Positions 221 through 8,222 of a DNA stretch of 8,222 nt are shown here, in pieces (position 1 is the stretch's first letter; each line of letters starts with the position of its first letter). The DNA comes from Deltaproteobacteria bacterium (lineage in GTDB: Bacteria > JAUYMQ01), in the NCBI GenBank assembly GCA_030698575.1, contig JAUYMQ010000225.1:1-8222 (forward strand), in the 5' to 3' direction. The translations under genes were made by a program, and so were the position numbers. The notes beneath the pieces were generated by a model, which was not told the DNA's origin, made no database searches, and saw only the letters and a program-made list of their open reading frames with translations.

Positions 221-541
221 ATGACCGCGATCCTGGGCATCCTCGCCCTCGCCGTGCTCTTCGCGCTGTTCGGACTCTTCATGCGCGGGCGCCAGCGGGA
301 GTGCGGAAGCGGCTCATCGTGCGCAGCCCTGGGCCCGGACGGCGTCTGCCCGGCGAACCCCGACGCGTGCCAGGCGATCGCGGTGCGCGCTGCCCAAGCA
401 AACCCACCGCTCCGCTCACGACCCGGGGTCACGGCGCTGGACGTCGGCGCCGCGCAGCTCCGGCGATCCCTTCGGACCCGGATGCGGCCGGGAGGACGTA
501 CATCCATGGAGGACAATGGACATGCCGGACCGCACGGTTGA
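221..541 (+). CDS. Small Cys-rich membrane protein, NqrM-like (DUF539)
   Basis: A 106-residue protein starts 7 bases after the rnfA-like stop. One N-terminal membrane helix (about residues 3-22) is followed by a basic stretch and four cysteines (C28, C34, C43, C50) in a segment reading [10 protein letters not shown] and PDAC. This resembles NqrM (DUF539), a short one-helix protein whose four cysteines are thought to bind iron for maturation of Na+-NQR; the family reads roughly CGGLGALGIDxVC followed by a CDxPC-like motif. Cys spacing here is not identical. The tail after about residue 60 is low-complexity, rich in Arg and Gly, and longer than the usual family length, so the useful part may be only the first 60 residues. 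The 3' end overlaps the copper ATPase start by about 20 bases. No strong ribosome site precedes ATG 221; the start rests on position and the helix. Family call is moderate. Confidence 0.5.
508..513 (+). promoter_or_regulatory. Ribosome binding site deciding the copA start
   Basis: GGAGGA lies 2 nt before ATG 516 and 8 nt before ATG 522, both in the copA frame. Normal spacing favours ATG 522, giving a protein that starts MPDRTVEL rather than MDMPDRT. ATG 506 is in a different frame. Confidence 0.6.
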
Positions 542-3002
542 GCTCCCGATCCGGGGCATGAGCTGCGCGTCGTGCGTGGCCAAGATCGAATCGACGCTGG
601 CGCGGCAACCCGGAGTGGTGCAGGCCACCGTCAACCTCGCTACCGAGCGGGCCAGCATCCGCGTCCAGGACGGCGCCACCCCCCGGGGGCTCGTCGAGGC
701 GATCCGCGACCTGGGCTACGAGGTCCCCGGAGAGACCATCACGATCCCGGTGCGCGGGATGTCCTGCGCCTCGTGCGTGGCGAAGATCGAGGAGGGGCTG
801 GCGAGCCTCCCGGGCGTCCTGTCCGCCGCGGTCAACTTCGCGGCGGAGCGGGCCACCGTGGAGTACGTCCCGACCCAGGTGGCGGTCGAGGACTTGCGTG
901 CCGCGATCCGGGATCTCGGCTACGAGGTCGGAGAGGTCGCCGGGGCGGCGACGAGCGCGGAGGACCTGAGCGAGCGGGAGGCGCGGAGTCACCAGGCGCT
1001 GCTCTGGAGGCTCCGCCGGAAGATCGCCGCCGGCGCCGTGCTGAGCGTCCCGGTGTTCCTGGGAAGCTATCCGTCGCTCTTCCCCTGGGTGCCGGACATC
1101 CTCCAGAACTTCGTCGTCCTCTGGATCTTGACCACGCCGATCCAGTTCTGGGCAGGGTGGCAGTTCTACCGCGGGGCCTGGGCCGCCCTGCGGCATCGGA
1201 CCAGCGACATGAACACCCTCATCGCGGTGGGGACCTCGGCCGCCTACCTCTACAGCGTGGGGCTGATCCTCTTCCCCGGGTTCTTCCGAGCCCAGGGCGT
1301 CGCGCGCGAGGTGTATTTCGACACCTCCACCATCATCATCACGCTGATCCTTCTCGGGCGGTACCTCGAGGCGGTGGCGCGGGGGCGGACCTCCGAGGCG
1401 ATCAAGAAGCTGATCGGCCTGCAGCCCAGGACCGCCCGGGTCATCCGGCACGGCAGCGAGACCGACATCCCGGTCGCGGAGGTCGTGTCGGGCGACCTGG
1501 TCGTGGTCCGGCCCGGCGAGAAGGTGCCGGTGGACGGCGTGGTCCGCAGCGGGGCGTCGAGCCTCGACGAATCGATGGTCACCGGCGAGAGCATGCCAGT
1601 GGACAAGAAGGCCGGCGACGAGGTCATCGGCGCCACCCTCAACACGACGGGCTCGTTCACCTTCGAGGCCACCAAGGTCGGCAAGGACACGGTGCTGGCC
1701 CAGATCATCAAGCTGGTCGAGGCCGCGCAGGGCTCGAAGGCGCCCATCCAGCGGCTCGTGGACACGGTGACCGGCTACTTCGTCCCGGCGGTGATCGGCA
1801 TCGCGGTCGTGACCGGGCTTGCCTGGTACGCGCTCGGGCCGGCGCCGGCGCTGACGTACGCGCTGCTCAACTTCGTCGCCGTGCTCATCATCGCCTGCCC
1901 CTGCGCCCTGGGGCTCGCCACGCCCACCTCGATCATGGTGGGCACCGGCAAGGGGGCTGAGCACGGCATCCTGATCCGGAGCGGTCAGGCCCTGGAGACC
2001 GCCCACAGGCTGCGGACGCTGGTCTTCGACAAGACCGGCACCTTGACGGCCGGAAAGCCGGCGCTGACCGATGTCGTGCCGAGCAGGGCATTCATCGCCG
2101 ACGATTTCCTGCGCCTGGCCGCGAGCGCAGAGCGCGGCTCCGAGCATCCCCTCGGCGGGGCCATCGTCGACGGCGCGCGCCAGCGAGGGCTCGCCCTCAC
2201 CGATGCCGAGGACTTCCACGCGGTGCCCGGCCACGGCATCGTCGCCCGTGTGGATGGCCGCTCGGTCCTGGTCGGCAATCTGCGCCTCATGGAGGACCGC
2301 GGCGTCGATGGCGGACTCCTTACGGATGAGGCCGCGCGCCTGTCCAGCGCGGGGAAGACGCCCATGTACGTGGCGGTGGACGGACGGGCGGCCGGGCTCG
2401 TGGCGGTGGCCGACACCCTCAAGCCCAATTCGGCCGCGGCGGTCGCCGCCCTGCATCGGCTCGGCCTGGAGGTCATCATGATCACCGGGGACAACCTCCG
2501 CACTGCCGAGGCCATCGCGCGCGAGGTCGGAATCGACCGGGTGCTGGCCGAGGTCCTCCCGGGGGACAAGGCCAAGGAGGTCAAGCGGCTCCAGGACGAG
2601 GGCAAGCTCGTGGGAATGGTCGGCGACGGGATCAACGACGCGCCCGCCCTGGCGCAGGCCGACATCGGCCTCGCCCTCGGGACGGGCACCGACGTGGCCA
2701 TGGAAGCGGCGGACATCACGCTCATGTCCGGAGACCTCCGCGGCGTCGTGACAGCCATCGCGCTGTCCAAGGCCACGATGCGGAACATCAAGCAGAACCT
2801 CTTCTGGGCGTACGCGTACAACACCGCCCTGATCCCGGTGGCCGCCGGCGTGCTGTTCCCGTTCTTCGGCTGGCTGCTCAACCCGATCCTCGCGGCCGCG
2901 GCCATGGCCACCAGCTCGGTCTCCGTCGTCTCGAACGCCCTGCGCCTGCGGCGCTTCCGGCCGCCCGTCCTGCTGGACCACGAAGGGAGGCGGAACCGAT
3001 GA
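522..3002 (+). CDS. copA: Cu+-exporting P1B-1 ATPase CopA with two HMA domains
   Basis: An 826-residue heavy-metal P-type ATPase of usual family length. Two N-terminal HMA metal-binding domains each carry GMSCASC (C15/C18 and C82/C85). The ATPase core shows TGES (354-357, actuator), the membrane CPC metal site (459-461), the phosphorylation motif DKTGTLT (D503), the SEHPLGG nucleotide-binding motif (H542-P543) and GDGINDAP (701-708). In the last membrane helices, Y766-N767 and MxxSS (795-799) are the P1B-1 signatures for monovalent copper, so Cu+ (or Ag+) export from the cytoplasm is well supported. The start is set at 522 because of the ribosome site at 508-513; 516 is the alternative, adding two residues. 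The stop overlaps the next start as ATGA (2999-3002), implying translational coupling with the small membrane proteins behind it. No CueR- or CsoR-type operator was recognised upstream. Confidence 0.98.
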
Positions 3003-3289: not shown

Positions 3290-3524
3290 ATGGATCACGG
3301 CGAACTGGATCTGGATCGTGCTCGCGCTCGGCGCGGGGTGGTTTCTCCTGCGCCGCGGCGGCGCGGGCTGCGGGATGGGCGGCCACGGACGTCATGACCA
3401 GTCGGCGCCCGTGGCGAAGGGTCTCGACACGGATAGGTCACCTTCGACCGTCACCCATGACGAGCAGCTGACGAAGGGCGCGAGCTCCGCAGGCACGCCC
3501 CGCCGGCGTGGGGGGTGCTGCTGA
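3282..3524 (+). CDS. One-helix protein with Cys/Met/His-rich tail
   Basis: An 80-residue protein that I cannot assign to a family. An N-terminal membrane helix (about residues 8-23, WIWIVLALGAGW) is followed by a GC-GMGG-HGRH patch with C30, M32, H35 and H38, then a polar linker, and the chain ends in a Cys-Cys pair (C79, C80). Soft-metal ligands on both sides of the linker, together with position between copA and a YHS gene, suggest copper binding at the membrane surface (inference). AGGAGG at 3268-3273 precedes ATG 3282 at a normal distance, and the gene overlaps the previous one by 8 bases. The second half has composition close to random GC-rich DNA, so the end is less certain than the start. 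Confidence 0.65.
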   Translation: MTEWITANWIWIVLALGAGWFLLRRGGAGCGMGGHGRHDQSAPVAKGLDTDRSPSTVTHDEQLTKGASSAGTPRRRGGCC

Positions 3525-3541
3525 GCGGGAGCCCCGGCCGC

Positions 3542-3567
3542 GGCGCCCCGGAATGAGCCGGGCCGCC
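3542..3567 (+). other. Hairpin between the Cys-rich protein gene and the YHS gene
   Basis: A 10-base arm pairs with its partner over nine positions, with one C-C mismatch and an AATGAG loop. There is no T-run after it, so it is not a canonical terminator. It could moderate read-through or protect transcript ends in the copper operon; this is inference. It sits 40 nt upstream of the YHS start. Confidence 0.35.
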
Positions 3568-3606
3568 CGAGGTGGATGGAACCATCACACCGAGAGGAGG
3601 TCAATC

Positions 3607-3774
3607 ATGACAAAGGATCCTGTGTGCGGGATGGAGGTCGACGAGAAGAAGGCTGCGGCGACGGCGACCCATGAGGGGAAGACCTATCACTTCTGCGCCG
3701 CTGGCTGCAAGAACAGCTTCGAGAAGAACCCGCAGAAGTATCTCGGCAGCCAGGGCGGTCACTCCGCCCACTGA
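3607..3774 (+). CDS. YHS domain metal-binding protein
   Basis: A 55-residue protein that is almost entirely one YHS domain: DPVCGM (residues 4-9) followed by TYHFCAAGCKNSFEKNP-x-x-Y. C7, C30 and C34 are the cysteines normally associated with metal binding in this family. Such small soluble YHS proteins accompany copper ATPases and are thought to bind or sense heavy metal in the cytoplasm. The C-terminus ends GGHSAH, adding two histidines. ATG 3607 is chosen because AGGAGGT at 3595-3601 sits 5 nt before it; upstream in-frame starts would add Arg-rich sequence unrelated to the family. It is the last gene of the copA group. Confidence 0.95.
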   Translation: MTKDPVCGMEVDEKKAAATATHEGKTYHFCAAGCKNSFEKNPQKYLGSQGGHSAH

Positions 3775-3813
3775 ACATCCGGGGAAGGGGTTCGGGGGCC
3801 CTCGCCGACGATC

Positions 3814-3828
3814 GGGGGACTGGCCCCC
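3814..3828 (+). terminator. Weak hairpin after the YHS gene, possible terminator
   Basis: GGGGG-ACTGG-CCCCC forms a 5-bp G/C stem 40 nt after the YHS stop, followed only by TT. It may end the copper operon, but the short stem and missing T-run make this weak. Confidence 0.25.
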
Positions 3829-3833
3829 TTGGG

Positions 3834-3848
3834 CTGACAGAATGTCGG
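3834..3848 (+). promoter_or_regulatory. Upstream palindrome 1, possible activator site
   Basis: CTGAC-AGAAT-GTCGG is an imperfect palindrome of the same design as the one at 3874-3888, with its centre 40 bp upstream of that one. Two such sites about 107 and 147 bp before the predicted start of transcription would be a usual arrangement for a sigma-54 activator. The activator is unknown. Confidence 0.35.
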
Positions 3849-3873
3849 ACGTCCCGGCCGCACGCGTCCCCGG

Positions 3874-3888
3874 CTGACGTTCCGTCAG
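3874..3888 (+). promoter_or_regulatory. Upstream palindrome 2, possible activator site
   Basis: CTGAC-GTTCC-GTCAG is a perfect 5-bp inverted repeat with a 5-bp centre. It lies about 75 bp upstream of the -24 element at 3961-3978 and shares its half-site and spacer length with the copy at 3834-3848. The lack of a T-run argues against a terminator. Confidence 0.4.
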
Positions 3889-3960
3889 AGACGTCGTGCG
3901 AGGCCTCCCGAGCCCCTCCCCGCAAGCGCGCAGATCTTTGGCTCTTTCCTATTCCGGACT

Positions 3961-3978
3961 TTGGCATTCCCGTTGCTT
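3961..3978 (+). promoter_or_regulatory. Sigma-54 (RpoN) type -24/-12 promoter
   Basis: TTGGCATTCCCGTTGCTT has the invariant GG (3963-3964) and GC (3975-3976) separated by exactly 10 nt, and matches the consensus TGGCA-N6-TTGCT except for the two bases after TGGCA. It lies in a locally AT-richer patch in the non-coding region before the cupredoxin gene. Predicted start of transcription is near 3988, giving a leader of about 67 nt. It would drive the cupredoxin-ccdA-lipoprotein group. It rests on sequence match alone. Confidence 0.55.
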
Positions 3979-4054
3979 CTGCATGTTCTTGCCGGAGACG
4001 GGCTGGCCGAGCAGGCGTCTTCGTCCTGCCATGAACACGAGACGGAGGTGACCG

Positions 4055-4498
4055 ATGGGACATGGGCAGAGGCGGAACAAGCGGGCGAAGCGATGGAAGC
4101 GCAACGCGTACATTCTTATCGTCGGGACGGCGGTCGTCACCGTGGCCTGGCTGGTGGCGCCGGCGGCGCGTGATACAGGCCCGGTGCCGCCCGGCGGGCA
4201 AGTCGTCGACATCGACGGCACGATGGGCGGGTTCTCCATGCAGGAGATCCGCGCCAAGGCCGGGCGGCCGCTGACCGTGCGCCTCACCAGCGTGGACACC
4301 CAGTTCCACACGGACGGCGGCGGCAAGCACCAGTTCGCCATCGACGGGCTGGGCGTCAACATCATCGCTCCCCCGAAGGGCACGCGATGGGCGACGTTCA
4401 CGCCGGCGACGCCGGGAGTCTACGAGTACTACTGCGACGTGTGCTGCGGCGGCCGCGCGAACCCGACGATGCAGGGGCGACTCATCGTGGAGGCGTAG
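4055..4498 (+). CDS. Membrane-anchored cupredoxin with altered CuA-like site
   Basis: A 147-residue protein: a strongly basic N-terminus (residues 6-17), one membrane helix (about 18-36), then an extracytoplasmic cupredoxin domain. The domain follows the subunit II layout of cytochrome oxidase: KHQFAIDGLGVNI (H92 in the place of the first CuA His), TFTPATPGVYEYYC, then C127-DVC-C131 and M139. Subunit II normally reads C-x3-C-x3-H-x2-M. Here C-x3-C is kept and a Met lies near the usual place, but the second His is missing (Ala135/Asn136), and an extra C130 gives a CxxCC pattern. A copper site of a different type is likely. GGAGGTG at 4044-4050 supports ATG 4055. The next gene starts 3 nt after its stop, so it is first in an operon with a CcdA-like protein. 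Confidence 0.9.
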   Translation: MGHGQRRNKRAKRWKRNAYILIVGTAVVTVAWLVAPAARDTGPVPPGGQVVDIDGTMGGFSMQEIRAKAGRPLTVRLTSVDTQFHTDGGGKHQFAIDGLGVNIIAPPKGTRWATFTPATPGVYEYYCDVCCGGRANPTMQGRLIVEA

Positions 4499-4501
4499 CA
4501 C

Positions 4502-5311
4502 ATGCGCGCCGCCCGCGTCCTGACCTTCTCCGTCCTGGCGGTCGCCGCGCTCGGCGTGGCCGCGTGGCTCGGCCTCGGGCGGCCGCCGACACCGGCGTTC
4601 ACGGGGCTGCCGCCTGTGGTCACGCTTGGCACCGTCGTCGTCGCCGGCTTCGCCGACGGCTTCAACCCGTGCGCCTTCACGGTCCTGCTCCTGTTCGTCG
4701 CCTCTCTGCTGGCAGCCGCGCAGCTCCGCACGGGGGAGGGCGCCGTGGCGGTGCGGGGACGCGTGCTCGGGCTCGGGTCGATCTACGTCGCGGCGGTCTT
4801 CCTCACCTATCTGGCGCTCGGCCTCGGCCTCCTGGCCACCAGCGCCATGTTCACCCAGGCCCATGTCCCGGCCCGCATGGCGGCCGTGCTGTCCATCGCC
4901 CTCGGGCTCTGGATGTTGAAGGACTACTTCATCCCGGACCTCGGGGTCCGCCTTCAGGCGCCCGCCGCGGTCGGCGAGTGGGCACGGGCGTCGGCCCGTC
5001 GCATGACGGTGCCCGGTCTCGTCGCCGGCGGTATCCTCATCGGGCTCTGCACCGTTCCGTGCAGTGGCGCCGTCTACCTCGCGGTGCTCTCGCTGCTGGC
5101 CGCTCAGGCGGACCGCCTGGCCGGCTTCGGCTATCTCCTCCTCTACAACCTGATGTTCATCCTGCCACTGGCCGCGCTCCTCGTCGCCGCCTCCTCCCGC
5201 CCCGTGCTGGCCCGCCTCGCCCGGTGGAACCTCGCGCACCGGGAGCGGATACGCCTCGGGCTCGGGACGGGCGTCGTGCTGCTGGGCTTCGCCATCCTGG
5301 TCACGGTGTGA
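4502..5311 (+). CDS. CcdA/DsbD-family transmembrane thiol-electron transporter
   Basis: A 269-residue polytopic membrane protein with about six or seven helices. Two conserved motifs mark the CcdA/DsbD core: DGFNPCAF in an early helix (C57) and GLCTVPCSGA (C183, C187) in the middle. In this family a pair of membrane cysteines accepts electrons from cytoplasmic thioredoxin and passes them to extracytoplasmic thiol proteins used in cytochrome c maturation, CuA assembly or disulfide repair. C57 and C187, each next to Pro, are the likely pair; C183 is extra. Length is close to that of stand-alone CcdA proteins, with an added N-terminal helix. GGAGG at 4489-4493 supports ATG 4502. It sits between a cupredoxin and a lipoprotein gene, and its stop shares a GTGA overlap with the latter. 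A partner could be the Sec-thioredoxin at 7757. Confidence 0.92.
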   Translation: MRAARVLTFSVLAVAALGVAAWLGLGRPPTPAFTGLPPVVTLGTVVVAGFADGFNPCAFTVLLLFVASLLAAAQLRTGEGAVAVRGRVLGLGSIYVAAVFLTYLALGLGLLATSAMFTQAHVPARMAAVLSIALGLWMLKDYFIPDLGVRLQAPAAVGEWARASARRMTVPGLVAGGILIGLCTVPCSGAVYLAVLSLLAAQADRLAGFGYLLLYNLMFILPLAALLVAASSRPVLARLARWNLAHRERIRLGLGTGVVLLGFAILVTV

Positions 5312-5814
5312 GCCGTGCGCCCGGCCTCGCCCGCCGCGCGGCCGCGCCTGTCGTGCTGGCGCTGCTCTTCCTCGCGACGGGCTGCGGCCGCCCGCCCGAC
5401 GTCCCGCCCTCGCTGGCCGGCCTGCCCCTCACCCATACCACGCAGGGCGCGGAGGCGCTCGCGGAGATCGGGCGCCTGCACGGCAAGCGGATGCTGCTGC
5501 GGGACGCCTGGGTGGCGCATTACGAGCGCAACGCCGCCGTCGCCATGCTGTATGTGTCGCGCTCGCACCTCGGCCCCGTGGCGCGGTGGCAGTTCTCGCG
5601 CATGGTCGACGGGATCGGGCGCGGCGCGGCGAATACCGAGGGGCGCTTCACCCACCTGAAGGCACGCAACGAGGCCGGCATCCCACTCTATTCGGCGCTC
5701 GGGCTCGGCCAGGTCCACTACTTTTACCGCAGCGGGCCGGCCATCGTCTGGCTTGCGGCCGACGCCGAGGTCGCTCGCGAGGCGCTTGCCGAGACGGTCC
5801 GTCTCATCCGTTGA
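5308..5814 (+). CDS. Lipoprotein of unknown function
   Basis: A 168-residue protein starting at GTG 5308, which forms a GTGA overlap with the preceding stop. The N-terminus is basic, then hydrophobic (PVVLALLFLATGC), with a lipobox-like LATG before C26, so an exported lipid-anchored protein is likely. The mature part is alpha/beta-like with no family that I recognise: GAEALAEIGRLHGK near residues 47-60, WVAHYERNAAVAMLYVSRS near 68-86, and HYFYRSGPAIVWLAAD near 137-152. No cysteine other than the lipid-modified one is present. The frame stays open upstream to about 4387, but that part overlaps ccdA and is not coding. Operon context links it to copper or thiol chemistry outside the membrane; the role itself is unknown. 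Confidence 0.8.
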   Translation: MSRAPGLARRAAAPVVLALLFLATGCGRPPDVPPSLAGLPLTHTTQGAEALAEIGRLHGKRMLLRDAWVAHYERNAAVAMLYVSRSHLGPVARWQFSRMVDGIGRGAANTEGRFTHLKARNEAGIPLYSALGLGQVHYFYRSGPAIVWLAADAEVAREALAETVRLIR

Positions 5815-5829
5815 GGCAGCGGAGCCTTC

Positions 5830-6111
5830 ATGACGGTGACGATGCAGTATCGGTGGATCCTCATCCCGGCGGGCGCTCCCGGGTTGGGCGCAGCCGTTGC
5901 GGTCTACGTCCACGAGCGGAGGCGCTGCGCCCGGCTGGCGTGCCGCATGGCCGGCCGCCGGCTCACGCTGGCCCTCCTGATCCTCGCCCCGATCCTGCTC
6001 GCCACATCCACCGCGCTGGACCGCCTCCCCGAGTTGACGTCGGGTCTGATCGCCCGGGCCAGCGGGGATCGCCCGTCAGGGCGGGCGTCCGCGACGCGCT
6101 CCCGTGCTTGA
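5830..6111 (+). CDS. Small two-helix membrane protein, hypothetical
   Basis: A 93-residue open frame starts 15 nt after the lipoprotein stop, with GGAG at 5821-5824 spaced 5 nt from ATG 5830. Two hydrophobic segments (about residues 8-26 and 45-62) flank an Arg-rich loop with two cysteines (RRRCARLACR). The last 20 residues are low-complexity. I do not recognise a family. Its own ribosome site and membrane pattern favour a real gene, but GC-rich DNA yields such frames by chance and it could be spurious. Confidence 0.5.
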   Translation: MTVTMQYRWILIPAGAPGLGAAVAVYVHERRRCARLACRMAGRRLTLALLILAPILLATSTALDRLPELTSGLIARASGDRPSGRASATRSRA

Positions 6112-6135
6112 CCACGTGAGGGAACGTGTTAGCAT
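6108..6135 (+). promoter_or_regulatory. Sigma-70-type promoter with extended -10
   Basis: TTGACC (6108-6113) is followed after 16 nt by TAGCAT (6130-6135), preceded by TG one base away (6127-6128), the extended -10 pattern. Predicted start of transcription is near 6142. The element overlaps the preceding stop codon and stands before the secreted-protein gene at 6179. Confidence 0.5.
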
Positions 6136-6178
6136 CATCGATGGGTCCAGCAGAGTGACGGTGAGCCTCCGAATCAAG

Positions 6179-6484
6179 ATGACGACCAGGGAATTTTCCG
6201 CGCTGACCGCTGTGACGGCGCTCCTCGTGTTGCTCTTCTGCCTCTCCAGCTCCGCTTCGGCTCCCGCCGCCGAGACTGGATGCGCGGAGTCCGACTCCTC
6301 AGTCAGGGTCTGTGGGCAGTCGCGTCTCGCGGATCCCGTCCCAGCCATCGTCCCCCAGGTTTTCCCGATGCAGTGGGACCGGGCGGTGACCGCCTCGCTT
6401 CCGGTGCTGTCGGCTCCCTCGTTGGTTTCGCAGATCCACGCGAGCCCCTCGTCTCCGCGCGCTCCACCCGCTTCGCTCGCCTAG
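6179..6484 (+). CDS. Small secreted protein, hypothetical
   Basis: ATG 6179 gives a 101-residue protein with a clear signal peptide (hydrophobic core about residues 8-22, then SSSASAPAAE). The mature part has two cysteines (GCAESDSSVRVCGQ) and then a Pro/Ser/Ala-rich region with no recognised domain. In-frame alternatives are GTG 6161 and ATG 6104; the latter lies upstream of the predicted transcription start, and the signal peptide favours 6179. No strong ribosome site is seen. The promoter at 6108-6135 and the signal peptide are the main support. Function unknown. Confidence 0.5.
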   Translation: MTTREFSALTAVTALLVLLFCLSSSASAPAAETGCAESDSSVRVCGQSRLADPVPAIVPQVFPMQWDRAVTASLPVLSAPSLVSQIHASPSSPRAPPASLA

Positions 6485-6869
6485 CTCCGCTTCAACCGTA
6501 GCCGGCTGCTCCGCCCGATTCGATAAGGTCGGCGTCCGCTCCGGGGTCCCTCCGGCCTCGCGTTGCGCACCCGCCCCTATCCGGCGAACGGCCGGCCTCC
6601 CCCGAGTCCGCGCAGGCGCGTCCGCCGCGCTGACCGCCAGCCGGCGTGCCAAGGGCGGGGGATGGCCGTCGAGGCCATGCGGGCGCCGAAGGCGCAGAGG
6701 TCACCGTTTGCGTGGAGCCAGGCTCACCGGAGAGCACGAGGGCGAGACGGATGGAACAGAGGATCGGCACGACCGGCCGGGTGCGGGTCCGCACGATCAA
6801 CCGCTGCTCTGGCGAGCCGGCCAGCCATCTGGCCGCACAGCTAGAGCAGAGCACAGAAGCGGGGGCGAG
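6485..6869. other. Non-coding or decayed stretch with hairpins before the propeller gene
   Basis: 385 bases without a convincing gene. Several perfect inverted repeats are visible: CCGGC-GAACG-GCCGG (6581-6595), GTGCG-GGTC-CGCAC (6781-6794) and CGGCCAG-CCAT-CTGGCCG (6818-6835). The last two lie in the probable leader of the next gene and could be regulatory. A frame from 6751 (or GTG 6712) to 6873 has GC-rich third positions and ends in an ATGA overlap with the next start, but is very short. I found no convincing sigma-70 or sigma-54 promoter here. Confidence 0.5.
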
Positions 6870-6873
6870 ATGA
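6751..6873 (+). CDS. Possible 40-residue leader peptide, doubtful
   Basis: ATG 6751 opens a 40-residue frame that ends with TGA 6871-6873, overlapping ATG 6870 of the next gene as ATGA. Third codon positions are mostly G or C, as in the real genes here. It has one cysteine (TINRCSGE) and no recognised domain. The ribosome site is poor. The coupling geometry is the only reason to list it. Confidence 0.22.
   Translation: MEQRIGTTGRVRVRTINRCSGEPASHLAAQLEQSTEAGAR
6818..6835 (+). repeat. Perfect 7-bp inverted repeat in the leader of the propeller gene
   Basis: CGGCCAG-CCAT-CTGGCCG ends 34 nt before ATG 6870. It may be an RNA hairpin affecting translation, or a protein-binding site. There is no T-run, so it is not a standard terminator. 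Confidence 0.35.
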
Positions 6874-7775
6874 GACTGATCACGATGTGGCGGAGTCTGG
6901 TGGGATCTCTGGTGTGTCTGGCCGTGGTCGGCGGGCAACTGCCCGCCTGGGCGGGCGAGCGGCCGTCGAAGGGGCAGGCGAAGCGCGCCTTCGAGCATGT
7001 CCACGCGCTAGCGATGGATGCGGAGGGGCGAAGCCTCTACCTGGGGACGCACCCGGGGCTCTCCCGCACCGAGGATCGGGGCCGGACCTGGCAGCCGGTC
7101 ACGCTGTCGGCGACGCATGGCCCCCTGGATACCATGGCGCTGATCGCTGACCCGAAGGACCCGGGGACCCTCTACGTGGCCACCCACGAGGCAGGAGTGT
7201 TCAAGACGCAAGACGGCGGACGCTCCTGGGCCGAGACCAGCACGGGACTCGGAGGGCTTGACGTTCACGGCCTCGCCCTTGACCCCAACGACCCGCGGAA
7301 GCTGCATGCCGCCGTGCGCGGGCGGGGTGAGGGGGTGTACCGGACCACCGATGGCGGCGCCGTGTGGGTGAGGGTGGACGACGGGCCCGCCGGTGAGGTC
7401 AAGGTCCTCACCTCGGTGAACATCCCCACGGGGATGGGCGGGATCTTCCTCTACGCCGGCACGGCCGAGGGCCTGGTCCGCAATCCGGACTGCTTCTGAG
7501 GGTGGAAGGCGGTGGGCGGGCTGCCCACCAGGCGCACGGTGAACGGCTTTGCGGTGAGCCCGGAGAACCCCAACCTGATGTACGCGGCGATGCGCGACGG
7601 GATCTTCCGCAGTGACAGCGCCGGGGAGACGTGGGCCCGCGTGACGAATGGCCCGAAAAACGTCGCGGCCGTCACGGTCAACCCGAAGACGCCCAGCGAG
7701 CTCTACGCCGCGACGATGGACGGCAAGATCTTCCGGAGCGTCGATGGAGGCATGCGGTGGAACGAGTCTCGCTGA
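6870..7775 (+). CDS. Secreted Asp-box beta-propeller, probable selenoprotein (Sec210)
   Basis: A 301-residue protein read through one in-frame TGA (7497-7499). A signal peptide (residues 1-28, cut near AWA-GE) is followed by repeats of the BNR/sortilin Asp-box type, S/T-x-D-x-G-x-T/S-W. Their Trp residues fall at 74, 120, 166, 212, 255 and 297, a spacing of 46, 46, 46, 43 and 42. The TGA lies in the fourth box, N-P-D-C208-F-U210-G-W212, so the repeat register continues unbroken across it and the residue is internal. The N-terminal segment FEHVHALAMD...LYLGTHPGL resembles proteins annotated as F510_1955 family glycosylhydrolase; enzymatic activity is not evident. A hairpin after the TGA has the spacing of a bacterial SECIS element. 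The result would be a Cys-x-Sec pair in a surface turn, suited to redox or soft-metal chemistry. If TGA is a true stop, the product is a 209-residue truncated propeller. The next gene overlaps the end by 19 bases. Confidence 0.8.
7497..7529 (+). promoter_or_regulatory. SECIS-like element of the propeller gene (TGA plus hairpin)
   Basis: TGA 7497-7499 is followed after 11 nt by GGTGGGC-GGGCT-GCCCACC (7511-7529): a perfect 7-bp stem with a 5-nt loop starting with G. Bacterial SECIS elements lie within the coding region just after the UGA, with an upper stem about 11 nt downstream and a G early in the apical loop; both hold here. A bulged U like that in E. coli fdhF is not seen. Confidence 0.7.
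7746..7750 (+). promoter_or_regulatory. Ribosome binding site setting the GTG start at 7757
   Basis: GGAGG lies 6 nt before GTG 7757, inside the end of the preceding gene. It selects GTG as the start of the Sec-thioredoxin, placing the signal peptide at the very N-terminus. Confidence 0.7.
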
Positions 7776-8222
7776 CAGTCGCGGCCGTCTTCCTCCTCGT
7801 GATCGGGGCGCCTTTCGGCGCGACCGCAGGCGGGGCGAAACACCCGTTCGACGCGATGGCGGTCCATCGCCCCGTCGAGCTGTTGCCGGTGCCCGAGTTC
7901 GTGTTCACGTCCCTCGACGGGCGCGAGGCCCGGCTCACCGACTTGCGCGGGAAGGTGATCGTGCTTGGGTTCTTCACGACCACGTGACCGAACTGCCGGC
8001 GGGAGGCTCCCGCCAAGGCGAAGCTGTACCGGGAGTTCAAGGAACGAGGCGTCGAGTTCGTGGGCGTCGGGTTGCGCGAGAACGCGGCCGCGCTCAGGGT
8101 CTTCGCCCGGGAGTTCGGGATCGAGTTTCCGCTCTGGATCGAGCCGCAGGGCCGGAGCCCCGCCGCCTTCGGCGTATGGGGCCACCCCAGCACAATCCTC
8201 ATCGACCGGGCGGGCACAGTCG
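7757..8222 (+). CDS. Exported TlpA-like thioredoxin, probable selenoprotein (Sec77), 3' end beyond window
   Basis: A frame of 155 codons from GTG 7757 runs off the window when the TGA at 7985-7987 is read through. Residues 1-25 form a signal peptide or anchor (VAAVFLLVIGAPFGATAGG). The rest is a TlpA/redoxin fold: LPVPEFVFTSLDGREARLTDLRGKV with the usual first strands, then VIVLGFFTTT-U77-PN-C80-RREAP at the active site, a helix and strand (KERGVEFVGVGLRE), and GHPSTILIDRAGTV with the cis-Pro loop. The TGA stands exactly where the first, attacking Cys of CxxC belongs, so U-x-x-C is expected. A SECIS-like hairpin follows. Such proteins act outside the cytoplasm, reducing disulfides or handling copper sites, usually fed by a CcdA/DsbD protein like the one at 4502-5311. 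The gene overlaps its neighbour by 19 bases. If TGA were a stop, a 76-residue fragment without an active site would result. Confidence 0.85.
7985..8014 (+). promoter_or_regulatory. SECIS-like element of the thioredoxin gene (TGA plus hairpin)
   Basis: TGA 7985-7987 is followed after 10 nt by GGCGGG-AGGCT-CCCGCC (7998-8014). The stem has 6 bp with an AGGCT loop, or 7 bp with a GGC loop if A pairs with T. Distance and loop fit the bacterial SECIS pattern, and the loop resembles the AGGUCU loop of E. coli fdhF. It shares GGCT with the loop of the hairpin at 7511-7529. Confidence 0.72.

Follow-up and report, generated by a model that had tools for sequence, protein, structure and literature searches.

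Genes and features of the window

The window, that is, the whole stretch of 8,222 nucleotides that was analyzed (contig JAUYMQ010000225.1 of assembly GCA_030698575.1, a MAG labeled Deltaproteobacteria bacterium), carries on its forward strand a gene for a copper-translocating P1B-type ATPase with two HMA domains (516–3002), followed by genes for a YHS-domain protein (3607–3774), a stand-alone cupredoxin-like protein that resembles the C-terminal domain of nitrous-oxide reductase (NosZ) and has the motif CDVCC (4055–4498), and a DsbD/CcdA-like membrane protein with a weak family match (4502–5311; DsbD, E 0.0013). Downstream of these, on the same strand, are two genes that each contain an in-frame TGA: a putatively secreted Asp-box beta-propeller (6870–7775), and a TlpA/ResA-like thioredoxin (7757–8222), whose start overlaps the end and stop of the propeller gene and which runs off the window. 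In the TlpA-like gene, the TGA (7985–7987) would encode Sec77 of a UxxC motif, FFTTT-U-PNC, and a SECIS-like hairpin with the core GGCGGGAGGCTCCCGCC lies at 7994–8020 (folding z −2.45).

Translation of 6870–7775 gives 301 residues, with a single internal TGA at codon 210 (7497–7499) and a terminal TGA; annotation under the standard code would split the gene in two. The N-terminal segment resembles a signal peptide (6870–6956, residues up to about 29), with a hydrophobic helix at residues 4–19 in both sequence and model and low pLDDT at residues 21–37. The AlphaFold model (pLDDT 88, pTM 0.82) has six blades, and the six Asp-box tryptophans that the sequence-only reading had listed (residues 74, 120, 166, 212, 255, and 297) agree in position. 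That reading had also placed the TGA inside the fourth Asp-box, where the translation indeed puts it: residues 207–212 (7488–7505), D-C-F-U-G-W, form the turn between strands 201–206 and 213–214 in blade 4 of the model, and the D, C/U, F, U, and G of this motif are invariant in the alignment. The Pfam model for BNR/Asp-box repeats (PF02012) matches the protein with 35.2 bits, above its gathering cut-off of 27, and together with the six repeated blades of the model this identifies the product as a predicted BNR/Asp-box propeller. The perfect 7-bp hairpin previously noticed 11 nt past the TGA is also as described (7511–7529): a GGUGGGC/GCCCACC stem (7511–7517 and 7523–7529) encloses a GGGCU loop (7518–7522).

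Conservation of the TGA and its cysteine counterparts

The TGA at codon 210 is present in 33 of 33 genes of the propeller clade, from 31 genomes of Rokubacteria, NC10, Tectomicrobia, and deltaproteobacteria, and no other residue occurs at this column among them. In a scan of GTDB contigs, all 18 close relatives, from these same four groups, had TGA at column 210. A phylum-level search centered on the window's own MAG (G000) gave that genome alone, and the search was then centered on a second genome, G002: 25 of the 95 genomes searched in its phylum had a match, every clade match covering column 210 had TGA there, and none of the Sec-clade matches covering the column had cysteine. The ratio dN/dS is 0.10–0.43 downstream of the TGA and 0.07–0.28 upstream, which indicates at the sequence level that purifying selection persists past the TGA. 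The sole frameshift in the 33 genes lies just upstream of the TGA in locus L020 (about 3800–3835), and may stem from an error of assembly or from real damage to this copy of the gene.

The sequence-only reading had proposed that homologues be inspected for cysteine at column 210 and that the TGA be sought there in other genomes. The second search led to the 33 genes described above, and the first uncovered nine plasmid-borne homologues in Alphaproteobacteria and Burkholderia (31–42% identity) that have an unbroken DCFC motif with cysteine exactly at column 210. Our first view, that the CxU motif had no cysteine-containing relatives, was overturned by this plasmid search. By its alignment, the TGA-containing clade and the plasmid forms make a classic Sec/Cys pair. 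More distant propellers (L144b, L151, and L152) have an ordinary Asp-box without cysteine. The cysteine two residues before codon 210 is itself replaced in two loci: in L014 (Tectomicrobia; 6616–6624) and in L081 the codon for Cys208 is also TGA, giving a DUFU motif with two TGA codons two apart. Since L014 and L081 are far apart on the tree and L080, the sister of L081, keeps the cysteine (DCFU), Cys208 was most likely replaced by selenocysteine twice, in separate lineages.

The hairpin downstream of the TGA

The bacterial SECIS (bSECIS) model calls for a loop of 3–9 nt, a stem of 4–16 bp, G in the first two loop positions, a spacing of 16–37 nt, and a minimum free energy of −7.5 kcal/mol or lower (PMC13188914, section 5). 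The propeller hairpin agrees with every one of these constraints, having a 5-nt loop that begins with GG, a 7-bp stem, a spacing of 18 nt from UGA to loop, and a folding energy of −15.7 kcal/mol. The loop is GGUCU in 31 of the 33 propeller genes and GGGCU in the window and L086 only, and it starts 18 nt past the UGA in 32 of 33. The SECIS element of Escherichia coli fdhF likewise presents a GGUCU apical loop 18 nt past its UGA, the loop of those 31 propeller genes and the distance of nearly all 33; it differs in that the encoded protein is another one, the propeller stem is a perfect 7 bp, and the window's own loop is GGGCU.

The hairpin is conserved, but the covariation that the earlier reading had suggested looking for is slight, the sequence being nearly frozen: two stem pairs show double changes, not beyond those in shuffled alignments, and four pairs are invariant. 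Among the few variants, L073 has the hairpin moved by one codon with a U-A pair changed to C-G, and L008 has an outer G-C pair changed to A-U. The folding energy is unremarkable for this GC content (z −0.58), and neither folding z-scores nor covariation is decisive alone. In a 16-sequence alignment, the codons GTG GGC GGT CTG CCC have an entropy of 0–0.34 bits, the lowest of the invariant degenerate residues tested, the others having 0.67–2.18 bits. The hairpin sequence was not found in the Cys homologues. Because the TGA occurs in 33 genes from 31 genomes with no other residue at its column, and because synonymous change is rare in the hairpin codons, conservation of the TGA and hairpin is, on the evidence of the alignment, beyond chance.

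Selenocysteine as the very probable reading of codon 210

On the strength of the TGA conservation, the fit to the bSECIS model, and the Sec/Cys pairing, we conclude with high confidence that the UGA at codon 210 encodes selenocysteine and that the gene encodes a putatively secreted selenoprotein. The proposal from the sequence that the TGA is read as an amino acid, possibly in a selenoprotein, is supported by the cysteine in homologues, the 33 TGA-containing genes, and the conserved hairpin. SelB and tRNA-Sec would decode the UGA as selenocysteine under the direction of the hairpin that starts 11 nt past it.

Reading of the UGA as an ordinary amino acid (tryptophan, glycine, or cysteine) through codon reassignment or a suppressor tRNA would fit the lack of a detected tRNA-Sec in the window's own MAG but is scarcely credible, given that the propeller gene itself ends with TGA, that in-frame TGA is confined to columns that correspond to cysteine or are known to hold Sec (210, 208, the TlpA UxxC, and SelD), accompanied by a SECIS-like hairpin in the cases examined, and that the carriers possess SelA/SelB. 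It is also very improbable that the TGA is a true stop, which would leave a pseudogene or a truncated four-blade product with the remainder expressed from a GTG at 7512. Elsewhere TGA does serve as an ordinary stop codon, the window's own MAG has no detectable Sec machinery, and a GTG does follow the TGA, but all 33 genes in 31 genomes keep the TGA in frame with conserved residues on both sides and a frameshift only in L020, purifying selection acts downstream, unbroken homologues have cysteine at the TGA column, and termination at this point would break a closed propeller.

Selenocysteine machinery and the origin of the contig

The sequence-only reading held that a lack of Sec machinery in the genome would refute a selenoprotein, and on this point the evidence is divided between the window's own MAG and the other carriers. 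SelA, SelB, SelC, and SelD were all searched for in G000, which is 91.6% complete, and none was found: a candidate SelB (L036) turned out to be EF-Tu, and the candidate tRNA-Sec matches that were checked were ordinary tRNAs, mostly for serine. Most carrier genomes, however, have the machinery. SelA and/or SelB scored above cut-off in 14 of the first 17 carriers; in the phylum of G002, SelA is present in 83 of 95 genomes and in 20 of the 25 carriers; and among the 14 genomes tested for each, tRNA-Sec (SelC) was detected in 9 and a SelD of the Sec type, with its own TGA, in 12.

The discrepancy may lie in the assignment of the contig. The window has a GC content of 0.70, higher than all sampled contigs of G000 (0.61–0.68), its propeller falls inside a Rokubacterial clade (support 100/99), and the IF-2 of G000 is no nearer to Rokubacteria than to deltaproteobacteria. 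Because of this atypical GC content, the Rokubacterial propeller, and the placement of IF-2, misbinning or transfer of the contig is likely; the tetranucleotide profile does not separate the two. The contamination rating of G000 is 4.6%, and the contig is probably misbinned.

A further possibility is that the family is real but that the contig does belong to the G000 organism, which has lost its Sec machinery or has a divergent one, so that the UGA in the window's copy is decaying. The absence of all four Sec components from a MAG of this completeness would be expected under such decay, as would the U-to-G change in the hairpin loop, and the raised GC content could reflect transfer. We nevertheless regard decay as unlikely: dN/dS downstream of the TGA is below 1, the second Sec gene, the TlpA-like one, retains its hairpin, and the GGGCU loop is shared with L086, whose genome (G101) has SelA. 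The position of the window's propeller inside Rokubacteria, to which the IF-2 of G000 is no closer than to deltaproteobacteria, fits misbinning instead.

Comparison with known families

Among the 119 families of prokaryotic selenoproteins catalogued in 2026 there is no beta-propeller or BNR protein (PMC13188914), in agreement with the original impression that such propellers are absent from the standard bacterial selenoprotein families. Text searches of the literature found no propeller selenoprotein, the families of Haft and Tolstoy 2025 being covered through the list in the 2026 review, and no NCBIfam model scored above its cut-off for the propeller. The best family match, with 119.2 bits, is NF045728 (F510_1955 family glycosylhydrolase, a BNR propeller), which shares its repeat fold and resembles it in the HxH/GTH motifs of the strands; however, the propeller falls under the family cut-off of 175, its Cys homologues score 88–128 bits, and in a true member of NF045728, L144b, the Asp-box is of the ordinary type (DGGSSW), with neither cysteine nor selenocysteine. 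A true member is encoded near a Cys homologue on the plasmid pSinB. The Ycf48/HCF136 photosystem II assembly propellers (PF14870), which are seven-bladed, are also Asp-box propellers with sequence and structural similarity to the propeller described here, but they have no CxU motif and occur in a different context. Similarity to a GH74-like glycosyl hydrolase is in fold only (TM about 0.55, normalized by query).

By these comparisons, the propeller is a previously uncatalogued selenoprotein family, although the placement of selenocysteine beside cysteine is shared with known CxU and UxxC prokaryotic selenoproteins (PMC13188914, Table 1). We consider it probable that the new family, with selenocysteine in a C-x-U (sometimes U-x-U) motif on a propeller Asp-box turn, provides a periplasmic redox or copper-binding site outside the thioredoxin fold, in a copper operon that also encodes a second, thioredoxin-like selenoprotein. 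Most known selenoproteins have a thioredoxin fold, and the CxU propeller would extend the use of selenocysteine to an uncatalogued scaffold. It would also link selenium with the handling of copper by uncultured bacteria of soil and groundwater.

Gene neighborhood and possible function

Beyond the genes found in the window, related Sec-clade loci add genes for CcdA, SCO1, multicopper oxidase, Rieske, cytochrome c, MerR, and PCYCGC proteins, and the plasmid-borne Cys forms have SCO, TlpA, DsbE, CcdA, DUF411, and CueR genes as neighbors. In locus L004, a copper P-type ATPase frame (3400–6807) runs on into the propeller with no intervening stop, and the two may be a Cu-ATPase-propeller fusion. These copper and thiol neighbors, and the L004 ATPase that reads into the propeller, are the reason for proposing a periplasmic CxU/CxC protein of copper and thiol-redox handling, a role that the gene neighborhood leads us to rate as evenly balanced. 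In the mechanism that we propose, the selenocysteine would sit within a C-x-U pair where the Asp-box turns in blade 4 of the six-bladed propeller; this pair, or CxC in other bacteria, would form a site at the protein surface for redox chemistry or Cu(I) binding; the TlpA-like and CcdA/DsbD-like partners would keep CxU reduced; and the protein would serve periplasmic copper handling, for example, delivery to copper proteins or their protection.

CxU/CxC may act as a redox pair or as a pair of metal ligands for Cu(I). Known chaperones bind Cu(I) through CxC pairs, and the copper neighbors and apparent fusion in L004 are consistent with such ligation. The neighboring TlpA, CcdA, and DsbE genes also point to thiol-disulfide chemistry, and selenocysteine in known families is usually redox active (PMC13188914); we treat a pure ligand role as a serious but tentative alternative. 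A NosZ-like central copper site, suggested by invariant histidines in the Sec clade, was set aside, as some Cys homologues lack those histidines. The Alphaproteobacteria and Burkholderia whose plasmids carry the Cys forms can be cultivated, and so the function is directly testable.

Some neighbors of the propeller resemble the known UxxC thioredoxin-like and peroxiredoxin-like selenoprotein families (PMC13188914), and the TlpA-like and peroxiredoxin-like Sec genes appear to belong to kinds already known. The Sec form of the TlpA-like gene is also found downstream of the propeller in L004, L008, L009, L010, L012, L013, L017, and L018. Peroxiredoxin-like genes with an in-frame TGA (around FYMVA[T/D]...C) occur near the propeller in L003, L015, L017, and L018, and likely represent one more selenoprotein, again of a known kind.
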